Positions 43,621 through 52,883 of a DNA stretch of 64,000 bases are shown in pieces. A program made the position numbers and the translations under genes. Position 1 is the first letter of the stretch, and the number at the start of each line of letters is the position of its first letter. Source of the DNA: Deltaproteobacteria bacterium (GTDB lineage: Bacteria; Desulfobacterota; GWC2-55-46); NCBI GenBank assembly GCA_016234935.1, contig JACRNL010000004.1:1-64000 (forward strand), read 5' to 3'. The notes beneath the pieces are model-generated. The model was not told the DNA's origin. It searched no databases and saw only the letters and a program-made list of their open reading frames with translations.

Positions 43621-44472
43621 ATGAATAAAACGAATCCAAAAGAGGTCACGATAGACCCGACCGCCATTGTGCACCCGTCGGCCCAGCTCGATACGAGCGT
43701 AAAAGTCGGCCCGTTCGCCGTCATCGGCGAGGACGTTCGCATAGGCAAAAACACCGTCATAGATTCCCACGTCGTGATAGACAAATGGACGACCATCGGG
43801 GCCCGCTGCTCCATCTTCCCGTTCGTGTCCATAGGCGCGGCGCCGCAGGATCTTGGCTATAAGGGCGAAAAGACCGAGGTCATAATAGGCGACAACAACG
43901 TCATAAGGGAGTTCGTCACCATACACAGGGCCACAACCAAGGAACAGAGAAAGACCGTGTGCGGAAGCTCCAACCTCCTCATGAACTACGTCCACATCGC
44001 CCACGACTGCCGCATCGGCTCAAACATCATCATGGCGAACGCCGCCACGCTCGCCGGACACGTGAGCATAGACGACTACGCCATAATCGGCGGCCTTGTC
44101 GCCATCCACCAGTTCGTGAGGATCGGCGCATACTGCATCATCGGCGGCGCCTCGGCGGTGAGTAAAGACATCCCGCCCTACGTCATGGCCGTCGGCAACA
44201 GGGCGAAACTCTACGGCCTTAACGCCGTGGGCCTTCGCAGAAAGGGTTTTTCCAGGCAGGAACTCGACGAAATAAAGCGGGCATACCATATAGTCTTCAG
44301 GTCTTCCCTCGGCATACAGGAGGCCGCGGATTTGCTCAAAAAGGAGCTGCCGGACTCGCTTCACGCGAGCCGCTTTGCCGCATTTTTGCATGACTCAAAA
44401 AGAGGACTGGCCCGCGAAAGGGTCAAGAGAAAGGGCGAACAGCCCGATGGCGGGAACGATGAAGAGGGTTAA
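43621..44472 (+). CDS. lpxA: Acyl-ACP:UDP-N-acetylglucosamine O-acyltransferase
   Basis: 283 residues. Hexapeptide repeat helix from about 10 to 195, catalytic His in MNYVHIAHDCRIG, then HVSIDDYAIIGGLVAIHQFVRIG and the C-terminal helical domain (GLRRKGFSRQELDEIKRAY). First step of lipid A synthesis. The C-terminus overlaps the next gene. Confidence 0.96.
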   Translation: MNKTNPKEVTIDPTAIVHPSAQLDTSVKVGPFAVIGEDVRIGKNTVIDSHVVIDKWTTIGARCSIFPFVSIGAAPQDLGYKGEKTEVIIGDNNVIREFVTIHRATTKEQRKTVCGSSNLLMNYVHIAHDCRIGSNIIMANAATLAGHVSIDDYAIIGGLVAIHQFVRIGAYCIIGGASAVSKDIPPYVMAVGNRAKLYGLNAVGLRRKGFSRQELDEIKRAYHIVFRSSLGIQEAADLLKKELPDSLHASRFAAFLHDSKRGLARERVKRKGEQPDGGNDEEG

Positions 44473-45412
44473 GACGGCCGTCATAGGCGTAGGCCATCTC
44501 GGCAGGTTTCACGCGCAAAAATACGCGATCCTGCCCGAAGCCGAGCTTGTCGGCGTAGCGGACGCCAGCTTTGAAAGGGCCGCCGCGGTCGCCGCGGAGA
44601 CAGGGACAAAGGCGTTTACGTCATACAGGGATCTTTTCAGCCTTGTCGACGCGGTAAGCGTCGCCACGCCGACAGACAGCCATTTTTCCATCGGCATGGA
44701 CTTCTTGTCAAGGGGCGTAGACGTCCTGATGGAAAAGCCCGTCACGAGCGCCGCCAAAGAGGCGCGCCTCCTCATCGAAGAGGCGGACAAACACAAGGCC
44801 ATCCTTCAAGTCGGCCACATCGAGAGGTTTAACCCCGCGATAACGGCCCTTGAAGGCAGGCTTAAAGACCCGGTCTACATAGAATGCGCGCGCGAATCCG
44901 TCTTTCCGAACAGGAGCTCCGACGTTGACGTCATTCTAGATCTGATGATACACGACATAGACGTCGTGCTGAGCCTCGTAAAGTCGGAGATAACGGAAGT
45001 CCAAGCGGCGGGCGTTGCCGTGCTGACCGACAGGGCGGACGTCGCCAGCGCGAGGCTTTGCTTCAGGAACGGCTGCGTGGCGGTCTTTGCCGCCAACAGG
45101 GCCGCGAAGGACCGCGTTAGAAAGATCGCCATATATCAAAAGGACGGCTACTTCTCAGCCGACTACGCAAGCCAGCTGCTTGCGTTTTCCAGAGTGGCGC
45201 GCTCCGCCGGCGCCTCTTTTGGCGCGCTGGTCCGCGCGGATATACCCATCGAAAAAAAGGACACCCTTCTTGAAGAGATCAGGTCCTTTGTAAAATGCTC
45301 CGCCCAAAGGTCTGTTCCGGTCGTCTCAGGGGCCGACGCCCTCAGGGCGCTTGAGGCCGCCGGGCGCATACAGGAGGCAATGGCCTTCCATCATGGGCCG
45401 GAGCGGCTTTAA
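44459..45412 (+). CDS. Gfo/Idh/MocA-family oxidoreductase between lpxA and lpxB
   Basis: About 318 residues. Rossmann motif AVIGVGHLGRFHAQKY, the signature MEKPVT and NPAITALEGRLKDPVYIE with a downstream DLMIHDIDVV metal/substrate segment. The start is ATG 44459 (or 44447), inside the end of lpxA. In Acidithiobacillus and Leptospira, GnnA of this family oxidises UDP-GlcNAc at C3 for amide-linked lipid A. No GnnB aminotransferase is present here, so that role is only a possibility. A Gfo/Idh gene at this place is common in Deltaproteobacteria-like genomes, from memory. Confidence 0.8.
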   Translation: MKRVKTAVIGVGHLGRFHAQKYAILPEAELVGVADASFERAAAVAAETGTKAFTSYRDLFSLVDAVSVATPTDSHFSIGMDFLSRGVDVLMEKPVTSAAKEARLLIEEADKHKAILQVGHIERFNPAITALEGRLKDPVYIECARESVFPNRSSDVDVILDLMIHDIDVVLSLVKSEITEVQAAGVAVLTDRADVASARLCFRNGCVAVFAANRAAKDRVRKIAIYQKDGYFSADYASQLLAFSRVARSAGASFGALVRADIPIEKKDTLLEEIRSFVKCSAQRSVPVVSGADALRALEAAGRIQEAMAFHHGPERL

Positions 45413-45573: not shown

Positions 45574-46743
45574 ATGACTAAAAACATCTTCATAGTGAGC
45601 GGAGAGGCGTCCGGCGACCTGCACGGCGCGTCGCTTATGCGCGCCCTACAAAGGCTGATGCCCGGCATCAAGGCCGCCGGCATGGGCGGCCCAAGGATGC
45701 GGGAGGCCGGCCTTACCGGCCTTGACTCAAAAGAGGTCTCGGTTGTCGGCATCACAGAGGTCGTCGCAAAGCTGCCGCAGCTGTTAAGGGCGTTCAGGGA
45801 ACTGAAAAAGCTGCTCATGAACGGCAGATTCGACGCCGTCATCCTCATAGACTTCCCGGACTTCAACCTGCGCTTTGCCAGGGCCGCCAAGAAAACCGGC
45901 GTCCCTATAATATATTACATAAGCCCGCAGGTCTGGGCGTGGAGAAGGGGCCGGGTCAGGAAGATAGCCGCCCTTGTTGACAAAATGCTCGTGGTCTTTC
46001 CGTTCGAGGAGGATATATACAGGCAGGCAGGCGTTGACGTCGAATACGTCGGCCACCCGCTCTACGCCGCCGCCGTATGTCCGCTCACAAAGGGCGAGGC
46101 GCGCGCAAAGCTCGGCCTGGCCGGCGAGGAAACCGTCATCGCGCTTCTGCCCGGAAGCAGGACGGCTGAGATACGACGCCTCCTGCCCCTGATGCTGGAA
46201 GCGGCCCCTCTCATCGAAAAACGGCTGGGCAGAAAAACGGCGTTCATCCTTCCCGCGGCGGACTCTGCGGAAGACGCGCTCCTTGACGACATCTTAAAGG
46301 CATCTCCCGTTCCCGTGAAGGTGCTCAAAAAAGAGACATACACCGCCCTGAGGGCGTCGGACGCGGCTGTGACAGCCTCAGGCACGGCTACGCTTGAAAC
46401 CGCGCTCATAGGGACGCCGATGGTCATCGTCTACAAGATATCCCCTCTCACATACGCGATAGCGCGGATGCTGATAAGCATTAAGGACATGGGCCTGCCG
46501 AATATCGTCGCGGGGAGACGCGTGGTAAGGGAACTCGTGCAGGACACTGTGACCCCTGTGAATATCGCCGGGGAGATCGCCGATATATTGACCGATTCCA
46601 CGAAAAAAAATGGTATAATTAAAGATTACGGCGAGATACGCGGGAAGCTTGCGGCCTCCGGGCCGGGCATTGCCGTTGACAGGGCCGCGGCCGCCGTATT
46701 CAAGGTGATAAACAGACATGGAACAGATAAAAGACAGCGCTGA
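45574..46743 (+). CDS. lpxB: Lipid-A-disaccharide synthase
   Basis: 389 residues, GT19. IFIVSGEASGDLHGASLM, VGITEVVAKLPQLLRA, LIDFPDFNLRFA, YYISPQVWAWRRGRVRKI, VEYVGHPLY and LLPGSRTAEIRRLLP are the family blocks. It joins UDP-diacyl-GlcN and lipid X. The ATG follows a short ATGACTAAAAAATGA that duplicates its own start sequence. Confidence 0.96.
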   Translation: MTKNIFIVSGEASGDLHGASLMRALQRLMPGIKAAGMGGPRMREAGLTGLDSKEVSVVGITEVVAKLPQLLRAFRELKKLLMNGRFDAVILIDFPDFNLRFARAAKKTGVPIIYYISPQVWAWRRGRVRKIAALVDKMLVVFPFEEDIYRQAGVDVEYVGHPLYAAAVCPLTKGEARAKLGLAGEETVIALLPGSRTAEIRRLLPLMLEAAPLIEKRLGRKTAFILPAADSAEDALLDDILKASPVPVKVLKKETYTALRASDAAVTASGTATLETALIGTPMVIVYKISPLTYAIARMLISIKDMGLPNIVAGRRVVRELVQDTVTPVNIAGEIADILTDSTKKNGIIKDYGEIRGKLAASGPGIAVDRAAAAVFKVINRHGTDKRQR

Positions 46744-47098
46744 AAAACCAAAGAGGCCGCTGATCATCTCTATCATATGCATACTTAACTTCATCTCCTT
46801 GCCGTTTTACTTCGCCATGCTCACGAACCCTGAGACCAAGGCGGCCCTTGAGAAGGACTACGGCTCCGCCTACGTGCCGACGGCCTTCGTTCTGGCCGCC
46901 TTCAGCACGGTGGCCATCATGGGGCTCTGGCGGATGAAAAGGTGGGGGGTCTGCGTCTTTACCGCCGCGGGGATAATCGGGCTGCTATACGACCTCTTTT
47001 ACATCGCGTCAGATAAAACGCCGACGAACCTGCTCAGCTATCTTTTTGAGATATTGTTTATAACCATCATTATCGCGCATTACAAAAAAATGACATGA
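46718..47098 (+). CDS. Small membrane protein of unknown function
   Basis: 126 residues with four predicted hydrophobic segments (PLIISIICILNFISLPFYFAML, AFVLAAFSTVAIMGLW, WGVCVFTAAGIIGLLYDLFYI, LLSYLFEILFITIIIAHY). It overlaps the end of lpxB by 26 bp and msbA by 4 bp, so it is translationally coupled to both. I recognise no family. Confidence 0.75.
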   Translation: MEQIKDSAEKPKRPLIISIICILNFISLPFYFAMLTNPETKAALEKDYGSAYVPTAFVLAAFSTVAIMGLWRMKRWGVCVFTAAGIIGLLYDLFYIASDKTPTNLLSYLFEILFITIIIAHYKKMT

Positions 47099-48876
47099 AC
47101 CTCTACATCCGCCTTTTAAAACTCCTGCCGCCATACAGGGGGCAGTTCATCCTCGCCTTCATAAGCATGATCGGTTTTGCCGTGTCAAACGGCGCCATGG
47201 CCTATCTTATCGGCCCGGTCATGCAGTTCCTCTTCTCCGGCAAGGCCGGAGCCGAAGAGCCGGTAAAACTCATCCCGTTTGAGATCTTTTCCATACCCAA
47301 AGACAGGATGATGGTCGCCATCCCGATAGCCATCATAGTCGTGGCGCTCGTAAAGGGCCTCAGCTCATACGGGCAGTCCTACTTCATGGGCTGTGTCGGG
47401 TACGGGGTGGTGCGCGACATAAGAAATAAGCTCCACAACCACATCCTTGAGCTGCCTATAAATTTTTTCAGCAATACGCCCACCGGCGTCCTGATGTCGC
47501 GCCTGACGAACGACGTGAACCTCATCCAGTCCGCCACGAGCGAAGCCGTCTCCACGGTCTTGAAGCAGAGCCTCACCATCATCGTCCTTGCCGGCGTGGT
47601 CATAAGCCTTGACTGGAAGCTCGCCCTTGCCGCGTCCGTCGCCCTTCCCCTTTCGGCATATCCCATGAGAAGGCTGGGCAAGCGCATGAAGAAGATATCC
47701 ACGCAGGGGCAGGTGACCATGGGCGCGATGACGGCCCTTTTGCATGAGGCCATCGCCGGCATAAGAATAGTAAAGGCATTCTGCATGGAAGGATATGAGT
47801 CCCTGAGGTTTCAAAAGGAAAACGAGAGCTTCAGGAAAAACCAGATCAAGACGCTGAAGGTCCGCGCCGTCTCGTCGCCCCTCATGGAGACCTTCGGCGC
47901 GGTGGGCTTTGCCGTGACCATCTGGTACGCGGCATACAGGATAAGCCACGGCACGCTGAGGCCCGAGACGTTCATATCCTTTTTCGCCTCTGTAATCATG
48001 TTCTACCAGCCCATAAAGGCCCTTAACGGCGTGAACCTCAACATCCAGCAGGGCCTTGCCGCGGCCGCGCGCGTCTTTGACGTCATAGACATTGAAAAAG
48101 AAGCGGCCGCCCCTGACGGCGCGGCAACGGGCGGGAAGGAGCTTGCCGGCATCAACGATTCCATAGAATTCAGGGACGTATCCTTCCGCTACGGCGGCGA
48201 TTACGTGCTCGCCGGCGTCAACCTCAAGGTCAGGCGCGGCGAGGTCATAGCCATAGTCGGAAGCTCAGGGGCCGGGAAGACCACCTTCGTCAACCTCCTT
48301 CCGAGGTTCTACGACGTAACCGGCGGGAGCATCCTTTTTGACGGCGCGGACGCCAGGGAATTTACGCTTAAATCGCTGAGATCGCAGATAGCCATAGTCT
48401 CCCAGCACGTGGTGCTTTTCAACGACAGCGTGAAAAGAAACATCGCCTACGGCGACTACCGGAGGACGGACGCGGAGATAATCGCCGCGGCAAAGGCGGC
48501 AAACGCGCATGAGTTTATCTTGAGGCTCCCGGCGGGTTATGATACGCTCATCGGCGAAGGCGGCGTCAGGCTCTCCGGCGGCGAAAGGCAGCGCCTTTCC
48601 ATAGCGCGGGCCATCCTCAAAAACGCGCCAGTACTCATACTGGACGAAGCTACGTCATCGCTTGACACGGAGAGCGAACACGAGGTGCAAACCGGGCTTG
48701 GCAACCTCATGGAAGGCCGCACTACCTTTGTCATCGCCCACCGCCTCTCTACCGTGAGGAACGCCGACCGCATCATCGTCTTTTCAGGCGGCGGCATAAA
48801 GGAGACGGGCAGGCACGAAGAGCTTCTAACGCGCGAAGGCGAATACCACAGGCTCTATTCAATGCAGTTCAAATAA
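47095..48876 (+). CDS. msbA: Lipid A export ABC transporter MsbA-like
   Basis: 593 residues: a six-helix ABC exporter domain (about 1-325) fused to an ATPase. Walker A GSSGAGKTTF, signature LSGGERQRLSIARA, Walker B VLILDEATSSLD and H-loop AHRLSTV are intact. It lies among lipid A genes, so flipping of lipid A-core is the likely job. Confidence 0.93.
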   Translation: MNLYIRLLKLLPPYRGQFILAFISMIGFAVSNGAMAYLIGPVMQFLFSGKAGAEEPVKLIPFEIFSIPKDRMMVAIPIAIIVVALVKGLSSYGQSYFMGCVGYGVVRDIRNKLHNHILELPINFFSNTPTGVLMSRLTNDVNLIQSATSEAVSTVLKQSLTIIVLAGVVISLDWKLALAASVALPLSAYPMRRLGKRMKKISTQGQVTMGAMTALLHEAIAGIRIVKAFCMEGYESLRFQKENESFRKNQIKTLKVRAVSSPLMETFGAVGFAVTIWYAAYRISHGTLRPETFISFFASVIMFYQPIKALNGVNLNIQQGLAAAARVFDVIDIEKEAAAPDGAATGGKELAGINDSIEFRDVSFRYGGDYVLAGVNLKVRRGEVIAIVGSSGAGKTTFVNLLPRFYDVTGGSILFDGADAREFTLKSLRSQIAIVSQHVVLFNDSVKRNIAYGDYRRTDAEIIAAAKAANAHEFILRLPAGYDTLIGEGGVRLSGGERQRLSIARAILKNAPVLILDEATSSLDTESEHEVQTGLGNLMEGRTTFVIAHRLSTVRNADRIIVFSGGGIKETGRHEELLTREGEYHRLYSMQFK

Positions 48877-48888
48877 GGCAGGCGGACG

Positions 48889-49550
48889 ATGCTTAAAAAA
48901 ATATCCGGCGCCGCCGGCGCCGCGCTTATCCCGGTTATCGCGAGCGGCCTCATAAGGCTCATCGCCGCGACCATGCGCATCAGCTGCGTCCATTTCGACG
49001 AATACCGGAGCGCGCTCAAGCAGGGCCGCCAGCACATCCTGACCTTCTGGCATGGAAGGCTCATGATGATGCCGCACGCGTACCGCGGCGGCAAGGGCAT
49101 CACAATCCTCGTCAGCCAGAGCAGGGACGGGGAGCTTGTCTCAAGGACGGTCAGGCGGCTTGGCATCGAGTCCGTGCGCGGCTCATCCACCCGCGGATGG
49201 CTCGGCGGGATCAAGGGACTTTTAAAGGCCGCGCAAAGCGGACGCGACCTCGCCATAACTCCGGACGGCCCAAAGGGGCCGCGCTATAAGGCGCAGATGG
49301 GCGTTATCCAGATAGCGCGCGCAACCGGCCTTCCCGTCTTCCCCCTGGCCTTCGGCGCTTCAAAAAAAAAACATTCGGCAGCTGGGATTCCTTTATAATG
49401 CCATACCCCTTTTCCAGGGGGGTCTTTATAGCCGCTCCGCCGATAAGCGTGCGCGCTCAAGCAACGCCGGAAGAAATGGAAGAAGCGCGCTCGGCGCTTG
49501 AACGGACGCTTAACGCGATAACGGCAGAGGCGGACAACTATTTTTCATAA
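48889..49550 (+). CDS. DUF374 lysophospholipid acyltransferase-like gene, frameshifted at an A10 tract
   Basis: The track's 169-residue ORF stops at 49398. Family features are present: ILTFWHGRLMMMPHAYRG with HX-type catalytic His, VSQSRDGELVSRTVRRLG, RGSSTRGWLGGIKGLL and AITPDGPKGPRYK. After the run of ten A (49362-49371) a -1 shift continues as KTFGSWDSFIMPYPFSRGVFIAAPPISV and ends at TAA 49550, giving the normal family length of about 220. The break is therefore an indel, a polymerase-slippage site or a sequencing error. In-frame peptide after the tract is HSAAGIPL. The gene would acylate or process lipid A precursors. Confidence 0.8.
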
Positions 49551-49588: not shown

Positions 49589-50869
49589 ATGAAATATGTC
49601 CTCTACGACGTCATCCTTCACGTCTCCCTTTTAGTCACGCTCCCCTATTTTTTTATCAAGATGCTCACCGCGCGCAAGTACCGCGAAGGCATCACGGAGC
49701 GTCTCGGTTTCATACGCGCCCAAAAGCTGAAAGGTCTTTCAGGCGGCCCCGTGCTTTGGGCGCATGCAGTGTCCGTCGGCGAGACGCGGGCCGTAATGCC
49801 GCTTCTCAGGCTCTTCAAGCAGCGGCATCCCGCGGTGAAGATCGCCTTTTCCACGGTCACGCAGACCGGCAACAGGGTGGCCGCCAAGGAAGGCGCGGGC
49901 ATCATTGACGCCCTTTTTTACTTCCCCTTCGACCTTTCGTGGACGGTAAAGGGCGCAATAAAAAAAACAAGGCCCAAGGTCTTTTTAACCGTTGAAAAGG
50001 AGATCTGGCCTAATCTTTTCCTCCATTTAAACCGGTTAAAAACGCCGGTCATCATGGTGAACGGCACCATTTCCGAGAGGTCATGCAGGAGGTTCATCCG
50101 TTTCGGCTTTTTCTTCCGGGGGGTTTTCGGCATGATGCAGGCATTTTGCGCCCGGACGCCGGAGGATATGAAGCGGGCCGTAAATGCCGGCGTGAAAAAA
50201 GACAGCGCCTTTTTGACGGGCAATATAAAGTTCGACATCAGGCCGCCGGAGGTCAATGCCTCCTCGCTGGACGCGCTTAAAAAAGCGCTGGGCCTGAAGG
50301 CCGGCGACAGGGTGATAGTGGCCGGAAGCACGCACCGGGGAGAGGAAGAAATTATCCTGTCCGCGTTCAAGGCGCTCTCAGCTGAATTAAAGGGATTAAA
50401 ACTCATCCTCGCGCCGAGACATCCGGAAAGATTCAACGAGGCCGAGGCCGTTGTCAAAAAGAGCGGCCTGTCCTGGGCAAGGCGCAGCAGCGGGACCGGC
50501 GCCGACGTCGTCATCCTTGACACCATCGGAGAGCTGATGACGGTCTATTCCTTCGCGGACGCGGCCATCGTCGGAGGCAGCTTCGTGGAAGGCATAGGCG
50601 GACATAACCTGCTTGAGCCCGCCCTGCTTGGCAAGCCCGTCGTCTGCGGCCCTTATCTGACGACGTATCTCAACATGGCGGAAATGCTCGAAGCGGCGGG
50701 CGGGGGTTTGCGGACAGAGGCAACCGGCCCGGCCATAGCCGGCGCGCTCAGGAAACTTTTAAACGACGAACAGCTCAGGCTGAGGACAGGCAATGCCGCC
50801 AGCGCGGCGGTCAAGGCGAACAGGGGCGCGGTTCAAAAAACGCTGGATGTGATTGAACGGTATTTTTAG
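49589..50869 (+). CDS. waaA: 3-deoxy-D-manno-octulosonic acid (Kdo) transferase
   Basis: 426 residues, GT30. An N-terminal anchor (VLYDVILHVSLLVTLPYFFIKML), then GPVLWAHAVSVGETRAVMPLL with the catalytic Glu, FSTVTQTGNRVA, EKEIWPNLF, GNIKFD, VAGSTHRGEEEIIL and GHNLLEPALLGKPVVCGPY. Adds Kdo to lipid IVA. Confidence 0.96.
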   Translation: MKYVLYDVILHVSLLVTLPYFFIKMLTARKYREGITERLGFIRAQKLKGLSGGPVLWAHAVSVGETRAVMPLLRLFKQRHPAVKIAFSTVTQTGNRVAAKEGAGIIDALFYFPFDLSWTVKGAIKKTRPKVFLTVEKEIWPNLFLHLNRLKTPVIMVNGTISERSCRRFIRFGFFFRGVFGMMQAFCARTPEDMKRAVNAGVKKDSAFLTGNIKFDIRPPEVNASSLDALKKALGLKAGDRVIVAGSTHRGEEEIILSAFKALSAELKGLKLILAPRHPERFNEAEAVVKKSGLSWARRSSGTGADVVILDTIGELMTVYSFADAAIVGGSFVEGIGGHNLLEPALLGKPVVCGPYLTTYLNMAEMLEAAGGGLRTEATGPAIAGALRKLLNDEQLRLRTGNAASAAVKANRGAVQKTLDVIERYF

Positions 50870-50919: not shown

Positions 50920-52002
50920 ATGGCATCTTTCCTGCAAAAAAATATCAAGCGATGGATGAGCGAGCCGGGCCGGGGGGGGCTTGCTCACATCATACTTTAC
51001 TGCCTTTCCCTTGCTTACGGCCTCGCCGTCTCCGTCAGGCTAAGGCTATACGGCCTCGGTATATTGAGCACCAAAAGGCTTCCATGCAAGGTAATCTCCA
51101 TCGGCAACATCACGGCCGGAGGCAGCGGCAAGACGCCGATGGCCATCCACGTTGCCGGACTTCTGAAAAAGCGGGGAGAGCGCGTTACGGTTTTAAGCAG
51201 GGGCTATGGCCGCGCCAGCTCAGGCGTTTTAACGGTTTCAGACGGTAAGAATATTCTCCTTGGGCCGCGGGAGGCCGGGGATGAGCCGTATCTAATGGCA
51301 ACGCGCCTCAAAGGCGTGCCGGTGGTTGTCGGTGAAGACCGCGCAGAGGCCGGCCTATTCGCCATCCGGAAGTTTAATCCTGCGTGCATTATCCTCGATG
51401 ACGGCTTTCAGCATTTGAGGCTTGAACGGGACCTTAATATTCTGCTCGTTGACGCTCAGGCCGGCTTTGGCAACGGCTTTTTACTGCCGCGCGGGATACT
51501 GCGCGAACCGTTGTCCGCCGTAAAAAGGGCGTCAATTACCATGGTGAAAGGCAGTGGTCTTGGAGACAACACCGCTGATATCATACACCGGTCTGGCAAG
51601 TCTGTCGTTAAATTCAACTATAAACCAAACTGCCTTACGCATCTAAGCGGCAATCAGACGCTGCCCCTTACGAGCCTTAAGGGCAAGCGCGTTATTGCGA
51701 TTGCAGGCATTGCCAACCCGGAATCTTTCTTTTCGACGCTCAGGAGGCTGAATGCCGAAATTGTTAAAACCATCATTTTCCCTGACCATCACGCATATTC
51801 AAAAGCCGATATTCTCAAAATCGAAGCGCTGAAAAAGGCCGCACCTGACGCGGATATTATCATCACAACCGAAAAGGACGGGGTCAAGCTGAAGGGCCTT
51901 GTTGACAGGAGGCTTGGAATTTACGCCCTCTCCATTGATGTCTGGATCGAGGACAGGATGGAATTTGAAAAAGCCTTCTCCTTTCTAAAGGAAGACCGGT
52001 GA
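50920..52002 (+). CDS. lpxK: Tetraacyldisaccharide 4'-kinase
   Basis: 360 residues. P-loop ISIGNITAGGSGKTPM, LSRGYGR, GDEPYLMATRL, LDDGFQHLRLERDLNILL and the C-terminal FPDHHAYSKADI block are those of LpxK. Phosphorylates the lipid A disaccharide at 4'. Its stop overlaps the next gene. Confidence 0.95.
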   Translation: MASFLQKNIKRWMSEPGRGGLAHIILYCLSLAYGLAVSVRLRLYGLGILSTKRLPCKVISIGNITAGGSGKTPMAIHVAGLLKKRGERVTVLSRGYGRASSGVLTVSDGKNILLGPREAGDEPYLMATRLKGVPVVVGEDRAEAGLFAIRKFNPACIILDDGFQHLRLERDLNILLVDAQAGFGNGFLLPRGILREPLSAVKRASITMVKGSGLGDNTADIIHRSGKSVVKFNYKPNCLTHLSGNQTLPLTSLKGKRVIAIAGIANPESFFSTLRRLNAEIVKTIIFPDHHAYSKADILKIEALKKAAPDADIIITTEKDGVKLKGLVDRRLGIYALSIDVWIEDRMEFEKAFSFLKEDR

Positions 52003-52883
52003 CGCTCGCGATGCTTAAAATAACCGCGTTTTTATTCGGCCATCTGCCGCTTTCGATACCGGCCTTATTGGGCAGAATATTCGGCCTTCTTATTTACAGA
52101 CTCGACAAAAAGCACAGGGACATCGCGAAGGATAACCTCAGGCGCGCCTTTGGAGCTGACAAATCCGGGAAGGAAATTGAACGGATAACCAAAAAAGTAT
52201 TTCAAAACCTTGCCGCGGTCTTTTTCGAGTTCATGCGTATTCCGTGGCTTACCGCCAAAAAGCTCGACAACCGCGTCCGGTGCGACGGCATGGAAAACCT
52301 TCAGAACGCGCTAAAAAAAGGCAAAGGCGTTATCTTCATCACAGCTCACTTCGGCAACTGGGAGCTGATGGCCGCGTATTACGGCCTTAAAGGCCTGCCC
52401 GTTGACATCGTCGCCAGGGAGCTTGACAACCCGGCGCTTGAGGAGTTCGTAAAATGGACGAGGCAGCGGAGCGGCAACAGGATAGTCTCAAAGAGCCGCG
52501 CCATGCGCAGGCTCTTAAAGACGCTTGCCTCAAACGGCATCGCGGGCATACTCCTTGACCAGAACGTCGCTGCTGCGGAAGGGGTGTTCGTTGACTTCTT
52601 CGGGACGCCGGCCTGCACGAACAAAGGCCCTGCCATGCTCGCCGCCATAAGCGGCGCGGCCATTATCCCGACATTCATATTGCGCGAAGGCAAAAAACAC
52701 AGGATAATAATAGGCAGGGAAGTCGAGCGCGTCAACACGGGCGACAAAAACCGCGACGCTTTGGTGAACACGGCGCGGATGACAAAGGTTATAGAGGATA
52801 TCATCAGAAAACACCCTGAACAGTGGTTCTGGGTGCACAGGAGATGGAAGACGAGGCCGCCTGAGGAAACGAAGACTAAATAA
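51999..52883 (+). CDS. LpxL/HtrB-family lipid A acyltransferase
   Basis: 294 residues, GTG start overlapping lpxK by 4 bp (ATG 52011 is the alternative). An N-terminal membrane anchor, then the HX4D/E active site in FITAHFGNWELMAAYYGL, VDIVARELDNP, GIAGILLDQNVAAAEGVFVDFFG and EQWFWVHRRWKTRP. Adds a secondary acyl chain to Kdo2-lipid A. Last gene of the envelope cluster; a repeat array follows. Confidence 0.9.
   Translation: MTLAMLKITAFLFGHLPLSIPALLGRIFGLLIYRLDKKHRDIAKDNLRRAFGADKSGKEIERITKKVFQNLAAVFFEFMRIPWLTAKKLDNRVRCDGMENLQNALKKGKGVIFITAHFGNWELMAAYYGLKGLPVDIVARELDNPALEEFVKWTRQRSGNRIVSKSRAMRRLLKTLASNGIAGILLDQNVAAAEGVFVDFFGTPACTNKGPAMLAAISGAAIIPTFILREGKKHRIIIGREVERVNTGDKNRDALVNTARMTKVIEDIIRKHPEQWFWVHRRWKTRPPEETKTK

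Follow-up and report, generated by a model that had tools for sequence, protein, structure and literature searches.

A conserved one-base deficit in the lipid A acyltransferase gene lpxJ, most likely bridged by transcriptional slippage

Known slippage systems and the lpxJ site

Programmed slippage of RNA polymerase has been described for few core cellular genes. In Citrobacter rodentium tssM1 (A11) and Yersinia tssM3 a long A run lies within a chromosomal gene devoid of ribosomal stimulators (PMC4256274), and the tssM1 tract gives rise to mRNAs with 10–15 A's and 20–25% frameshifting, where the default frame is truncated and insertion of A restores the full length (PMC4256274). Likewise, the housekeeping gene dnaX of Thermus thermophilus yields two products from one gene by means of an A9 run, and in Buchnera and Blochmannia poly(A) frameshifts in functional genes are rescued by slippage. 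The E. coli RNA polymerase slips from 8 A's upwards only, with insertions exceeding deletions (PMC6260861). The LpxJ family (DUF374) comprises lipid A late acyltransferases (PMC6148475), and mutagenesis of the Rickettsia typhi enzyme revealed that W172 and D173 are each required for activity (PMC6148475).

We analyzed an lpxJ gene carrying an A10 tract in a 64,000-nucleotide stretch of a deltaproteobacterial contig, termed the window. Like tssM1, this gene and its off-frame homologues are chromosomal, contain an extended stretch of A's without ribosomal stimulators and have a truncated default frame that an inserted A would restore to full length. Slippage in tssM has been found in two genes only (PMC4256274), whereas the predicted lpxJ site spans three bacterial groups and concerns a lipid A enzyme. 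With Thermus dnaX the site shares the housekeeping context, the run of A's and, potentially, two products from one gene, although in Thermus the long form is read in frame from the genome and the short one arises by slippage, whereas in lpxJ the short form is the genome-encoded one; it is the intact lpxJ relatives with A10–A11 that resemble the dnaX arrangement. The lpxJ site may have begun like the off-frame A runs of Buchnera and Blochmannia, but those cases occur in AT-rich reduced genomes, whereas here the lpxJ genes are GC-rich (median 58% GC), the deficit amounts to one base throughout and the arrangement is old. The LpxJ proteins of Rickettsia, Helicobacter and Campylobacter are likewise DUF374 members lacking the HX4D motif and share the same conserved His, Asp and Trp-Asp, but no frameshift has been described for them (PMC6148475). 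No report of frameshifting or slippage in DUF374/LpxJ was found in the GeneTack main text (PMC3711429), in the accessible part of the Atkins review or by literature search, and an earlier listing is possible. Thus, the class of mechanism is known, and the lpxJ case is unusual in its breadth and in acting on lipid A synthesis.

The lpxJ locus and its A10 tract

The gene lies between msbA and waaA in a lipid A cluster of the order lpxA, GnnA-like dehydrogenase, lpxB, small ORF, msbA, lpxJ, waaA, lpxK and lpxL-like (Table 1). Based on the match of its ORF to PF04028 (88.9 bits against a curated cut-off of 26.8), we assign it to DUF374/LpxJ, the lipid A secondary (late) acyltransferase family, so that the earlier note's designation as a lipid A cluster acyltransferase was right and can be made specific. 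The GnnA-like dehydrogenase in the same cluster may indicate that the lipid A backbone consists of GlcN3N sugars, with chains attached by amide bonds.

Table 1 Features of the lipid A cluster and of the lpxJ frameshift site in window coordinates
Feature	Position	Strand	Evidence or remark
lpxA	43621..44472	+	TIGR01852 above cut-off
Dehydrogenase resembling UDP-GlcNAc 3-dehydrogenase, between lpxA and lpxB	44456..45409		GnnA-like, under curated cut-off
lpxB	45574..46743	+	TIGR00215 above cut-off
Short hydrophobic ORF of 126 aa, flanked by lpxB and msbA	46718..47098		no NCBIfam match
msbA-like, immediately 5' of lpxJ	47095..48876	+	TIGR02203, 593.8 bits against cut-off 602
0-frame ORF of lpxJ (DUF374), 169 aa; putative default, truncated product	48889..49398	+	PF04028 E=1.6e-25; ORF listing
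A10, candidate slippage tract, 0-frame reading TCA AAA AAA AAA C	49362..49371	+	sequence; A9–A11 in 148/148 off-frame homologues
-1-frame continuation, C-terminal 59 residues of LpxJ	49371..49550	+	C-part profile match without internal stops; dN/dS 0.18 (homologues)
Ser-Trp-Asp codons, in the -1 frame only	49380..49388	+	148/148 homologues; motif equivalent of R. typhi LpxJ W172-D173 (PMC6148475)
0-frame stop ending the truncated product	49396..49398	+	ORF listing
waaA/kdtA, start 38 nt past the lpxJ -1-frame stop	49589..50869	+	NF004388 E=1e-101
lpxK	50920..52002	+	TIGR00682 above cut-off
lpxL/htrB-like late acyltransferase	51999..52883	+	NF006270 E=5e-70

Past the ten A's, which were read directly from the window sequence, the 0 frame of the 169-codon ORF continues as ...GASKKKHSAAGIPL-stop (HSAAGIPL-stop), whereas the -1 frame reads TFGSWDSFIMPYPFSRGVF... 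and remains open for 59 codons up to a stop at 49548–49550. The split of the gene by an off-frame A10 was thus confirmed in the sequence and recurs in 148 homologues. Reading through into the -1 frame results in a protein of 219 residues, in line with the 205–244 aa of intact relatives and with the normal family length that had been suggested for this frame. The conserved motifs are retained in the off-frame genes, where xWH was found in 145/148 and DGPxGP, SxxxDG and WD each in 148/148, with the window gene exhibiting all four. W166 and D167 of the read-through protein are the counterparts of R. typhi W172 and D173 by motif, rather than by alignment with the Rickettsia sequence. The 0-frame product lacks both residues and should therefore be inactive. 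A structure model of an intact relative (L049; pLDDT 87) adopts an acyltransferase fold of the PatA/PlsC/LpxM type, with PatA, PlsC and LpxM as its best PDB matches (E 8e-8 to 2e-6); on this model, a product truncated near residue 160 would lack the last strands and the C-terminal helix.

Conservation of the deficit, the tract and the downstream frame

Homologues were collected from public genomes and translated in all six frames; the amino-terminal (N) and carboxy-terminal (C) parts were each placed by a profile HMM of their own, and the frame of the C part was scored. Among 265 distinct homologues, the C part is in frame in 117 and requires a -1 shift in 148; a +1 shift is required in no gene. 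The tract of the 148 -1 genes comprises A9 in 109, A10 in 38 and A11 in one, with none shorter. The spacer from the Ser codon at the end of the N part to Ser-Trp-Asp measures 17 nt in all 148, whereas in the 117 in-frame genes it is 18 nt in 103 and 21 nt in 14. The -1 genes were found in the window's class, in Syntrophorhabdus-like lineages, in one further family of the phylum, in Nitrospirota (67 genes) and in Acidobacteriota (14 genes); Zixibacteria were represented by four genomes only. As the 148 genes share kinship, their counts are not independent, and the -1 state requires 17 changes in a FastTree phylogeny of all 265, seven of which are forced by well-supported branches. Nevertheless, the arrangement is not a chance one: the 2.15 Mb genome contains only two A10 runs, and the same off-by-one arrangement is present in 148 distinct genes.

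This conservation bears on whether the shift stems from a homopolymer miscount by the assembly or from decay into a pseudogene, either of which might be suspected since the window is known from a single assembly and automatic pipelines would call the gene frameshifted. However, the same one-base-short state occurs in 148 genes from many independent assemblies, some of them single-contig genomes, and the C part is intact and under purifying selection (dN/dS 0.18), so that both can be excluded with next to no residual doubt. Phase variation, where replication slippage in the tract would toggle lpxJ on and off, draws on the mutability of long A runs and on the presence of both in-frame and off-frame genes in the window's class. 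In a preceding tree, built from 202 genes, the window's gene was placed among 50 clade members, of which 37 were -1 and 12 were in frame with long tracts. Phase variation predicts a mixture of 0, -1 and +1 states, but each of the 67 tract-bearing genes sampled in Nitrospirota lacks the same base and is thus 'off', and the spacer is constant at 17 nt in 148/148; in-frame tracts, expected among close relatives of a phase-variable gene, were absent from these 67 genes. Runs of at least 7 A's are absent from the 19 Nitrospirota genes sampled that are in frame. Phase variation is thus very unlikely. The earlier note had listed slippage, phase variation and error as equal options; with error ruled out and phase variation very unlikely, programmed slippage remains and is supported.

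Intact relatives of the window's class also carry A7–A11, and runs of 7–11 A's were noted in the in-frame lpxJ of L003, L005, L007, L009, L011, L012, L014, L015, L017, L028, L070, L182 and L184. By analogy with Thermus dnaX, slippage on these tracts could yield a shortened product.

Purifying selection acts on the downstream -1 frame. Trp-Asp opens the C part in this frame in 148/148 genes, none of which contains an internal stop, and across 45 gene pairs dN/dS had a median of 0.086 in the N part, of 0.18 in the C part when translated in the -1 frame and of 1.54 when this C stretch was translated in the 0 frame. A split gene, in which the C part would be a separately initiated subunit, is compatible with a -1 frame that is open for a median of 114 nt upstream of Ser-Trp-Asp. 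In 112 of the 148 genes, the window's included, this open stretch lacks any ATG, GTG or TTG, and ATG occurs in two only, disfavoring such a subunit and rendering it extremely improbable.

The tract itself is likewise selected, being kept at the nucleotide level. Its Lys codons are AAA in every off-frame gene and never AAG, whereas a control Lys in the conserved DGPKGP motif is encoded by AAA in 55/117 (47%), and the AAA share of the Lys codons elsewhere in off-frame genes amounts to 0.20 in Acidobacteriota, 0.42 in Nitrospirota and 0.51 in the others. The Ser preceding the tract is encoded by TCA in 55 of 57 Nitrospirota genes, where an invariant residue uses its most frequent codon in a median of 49% of genes. 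Across all 148 genes, a single further A9 run was found outside the tract.

Polymerase slippage, ribosomal frameshifting and coupling to waaA

Together, the homologues show a conserved one-base deficit, a tract conserved at the nucleotide level and a downstream frame under selection, and we consider lpxJ to undergo conserved programmed frameshifting, most likely by transcriptional slippage. RNA polymerase transcribing the A9–A11 run would add one A in part of the transcripts; these +1 A mRNAs would be read in frame into the C-terminal quarter with the essential Trp-Asp, giving an active lipid A acyltransferase, whereas unslipped mRNAs would yield a truncated, probably inactive protein. The run would thereby set a fixed, low share of active LpxJ. 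We infer the RNA-level event, its rate and a dose-limiting purpose from the sequence pattern. Consistent with slippage, 148/148 tracts have the 8–9 or more A's on which RNA polymerase slips, and the site is conserved in orthologues and followed by a functional downstream frame. The E. coli polymerase slips worse on A runs than on T runs (PMC6260861), which counts against this reading, and A9 may be a weak slippage site in some species.

The slippery heptamer A_AAA_AAA pointed out by the earlier note is present in the correct phase within every tract, as judged from the tract phases, and would also permit programmed -1 ribosomal frameshifting (PRF) by tandem Lys-tRNA slippage, alone or along with polymerase slippage as in dnaX genes. 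The shift direction is -1 in 148/148, and a single direction kept in orthologues led the GeneTack authors to predict ribosomal frameshifting (PMC3711429), which counts against slippage; this rule is a heuristic rather than a definition, and insertion-biased slippage also predicts a single direction, so that the -1-only pattern fits both. However, seven A's would suffice for a ribosomal shift, yet none of the 148 tracts is below nine, and A_AAA_AAG, which outperforms A_AAA_AAA in ribosomal frameshifting in E. coli (PMC4066793), is absent from them. Efficient cases use stimulators (PMC4066793), and the most efficient V_VV.A_AA.G heptamers lacking them yield only some 0.3% in E. coli (PMC4066793). 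The usual, though not universal, stimulators, an upstream Shine-Dalgarno-like motif or a downstream structure, were not enriched when comparing the 148 with the 117 genes: Shine-Dalgarno-like motifs occur in 6/148 off-frame against 6/117 intact genes, and downstream folding was not above synonymous shuffles (mean z -0.09). A mild fold signal up- and downstream under mononucleotide shuffling is not claimed, since its downstream part vanished under synonymous shuffles; upstream folding under these shuffles gave z -0.37 for off-frame and -0.21 for intact genes. Tracts never shorter than nine A's, the absence of AAG, the scarcity of stimulators and the polymerase threshold of about 8 A's thus lead us to favor slippage with an added A by a clear margin over the other routes, and we regard ribosomal frameshifting as unlikely.

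Slippage might alternatively serve mainly the translation of the next gene, with ribosomes on slipped mRNAs ending at the waaA start and the LpxJ/WaaA ratio being set by translational coupling. Such coupling is possible because in most lineages full-length lpxJ terminates at or close to the waaA start or extends across it: of 102 genes with sufficient flanking sequence, 76 have their -1-frame stop within -20 to +60 nt of the next ORF, and the 0-frame stop lies a median of 110 nt ahead of the -1-frame stop. A polar effect of this kind is known from Shigella spa13 and spa32 (PMC5009743). Nevertheless, the C part is under its own protein-level selection and contains essential residues, so that full-length LpxJ must be made and coupling would only be an added effect; as the main function we deem it rather improbable.

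Returning to slippage that limits the dose of active LpxJ, neutral tolerance of the shift predicts mixed frames, and the window's class has both (37 off-frame to 12 in-frame genes), but every sampled Acidobacteriota lpxJ with a tract is off-frame, as are all those of the Nitrospirota, which suggests that a reduced full-length share is preferred. Judged by these patterns, the deficit has the appearance of a long-established, inherent regulatory device in outer-membrane synthesis and not of a defective gene. More speculatively, and in our view doubtful in its entirety, it could act as an ancient brake, written into the genome, on the acylation of lipid A, where slippage sets the active LpxJ share, possibly tuned by temperature or growth, and the truncated protein or the ribosome stop point adds a second effect through a partner subunit or coupling to waaA.

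An outer-membrane biosynthetic enzyme appears to depend on slippage across much of the Nitrospirota, parts of the Acidobacteriota and two Deltaproteobacteria-like groups, providing many natural replicates for studying how and why slippage is kept. Annotation pipelines would call such lpxJ genes frameshifted, and predictions of lipid A in these groups may wrongly count LpxJ as absent.

The genome contains about 33 A runs of nine or more, and most of the 30 inspected fall either within ORFs that stay open or in regions without long ORFs. The only other A10 (G000 contig C1, 57242–57251; locus L267) is located outside the window and also ends its ORF early, with a CarG-like profile (PF21955) resuming in the +1 frame. 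No relatives of this gene were found in 59 related genomes, and its A10 may represent either a mutation peculiar to this genome or another site of slippage.
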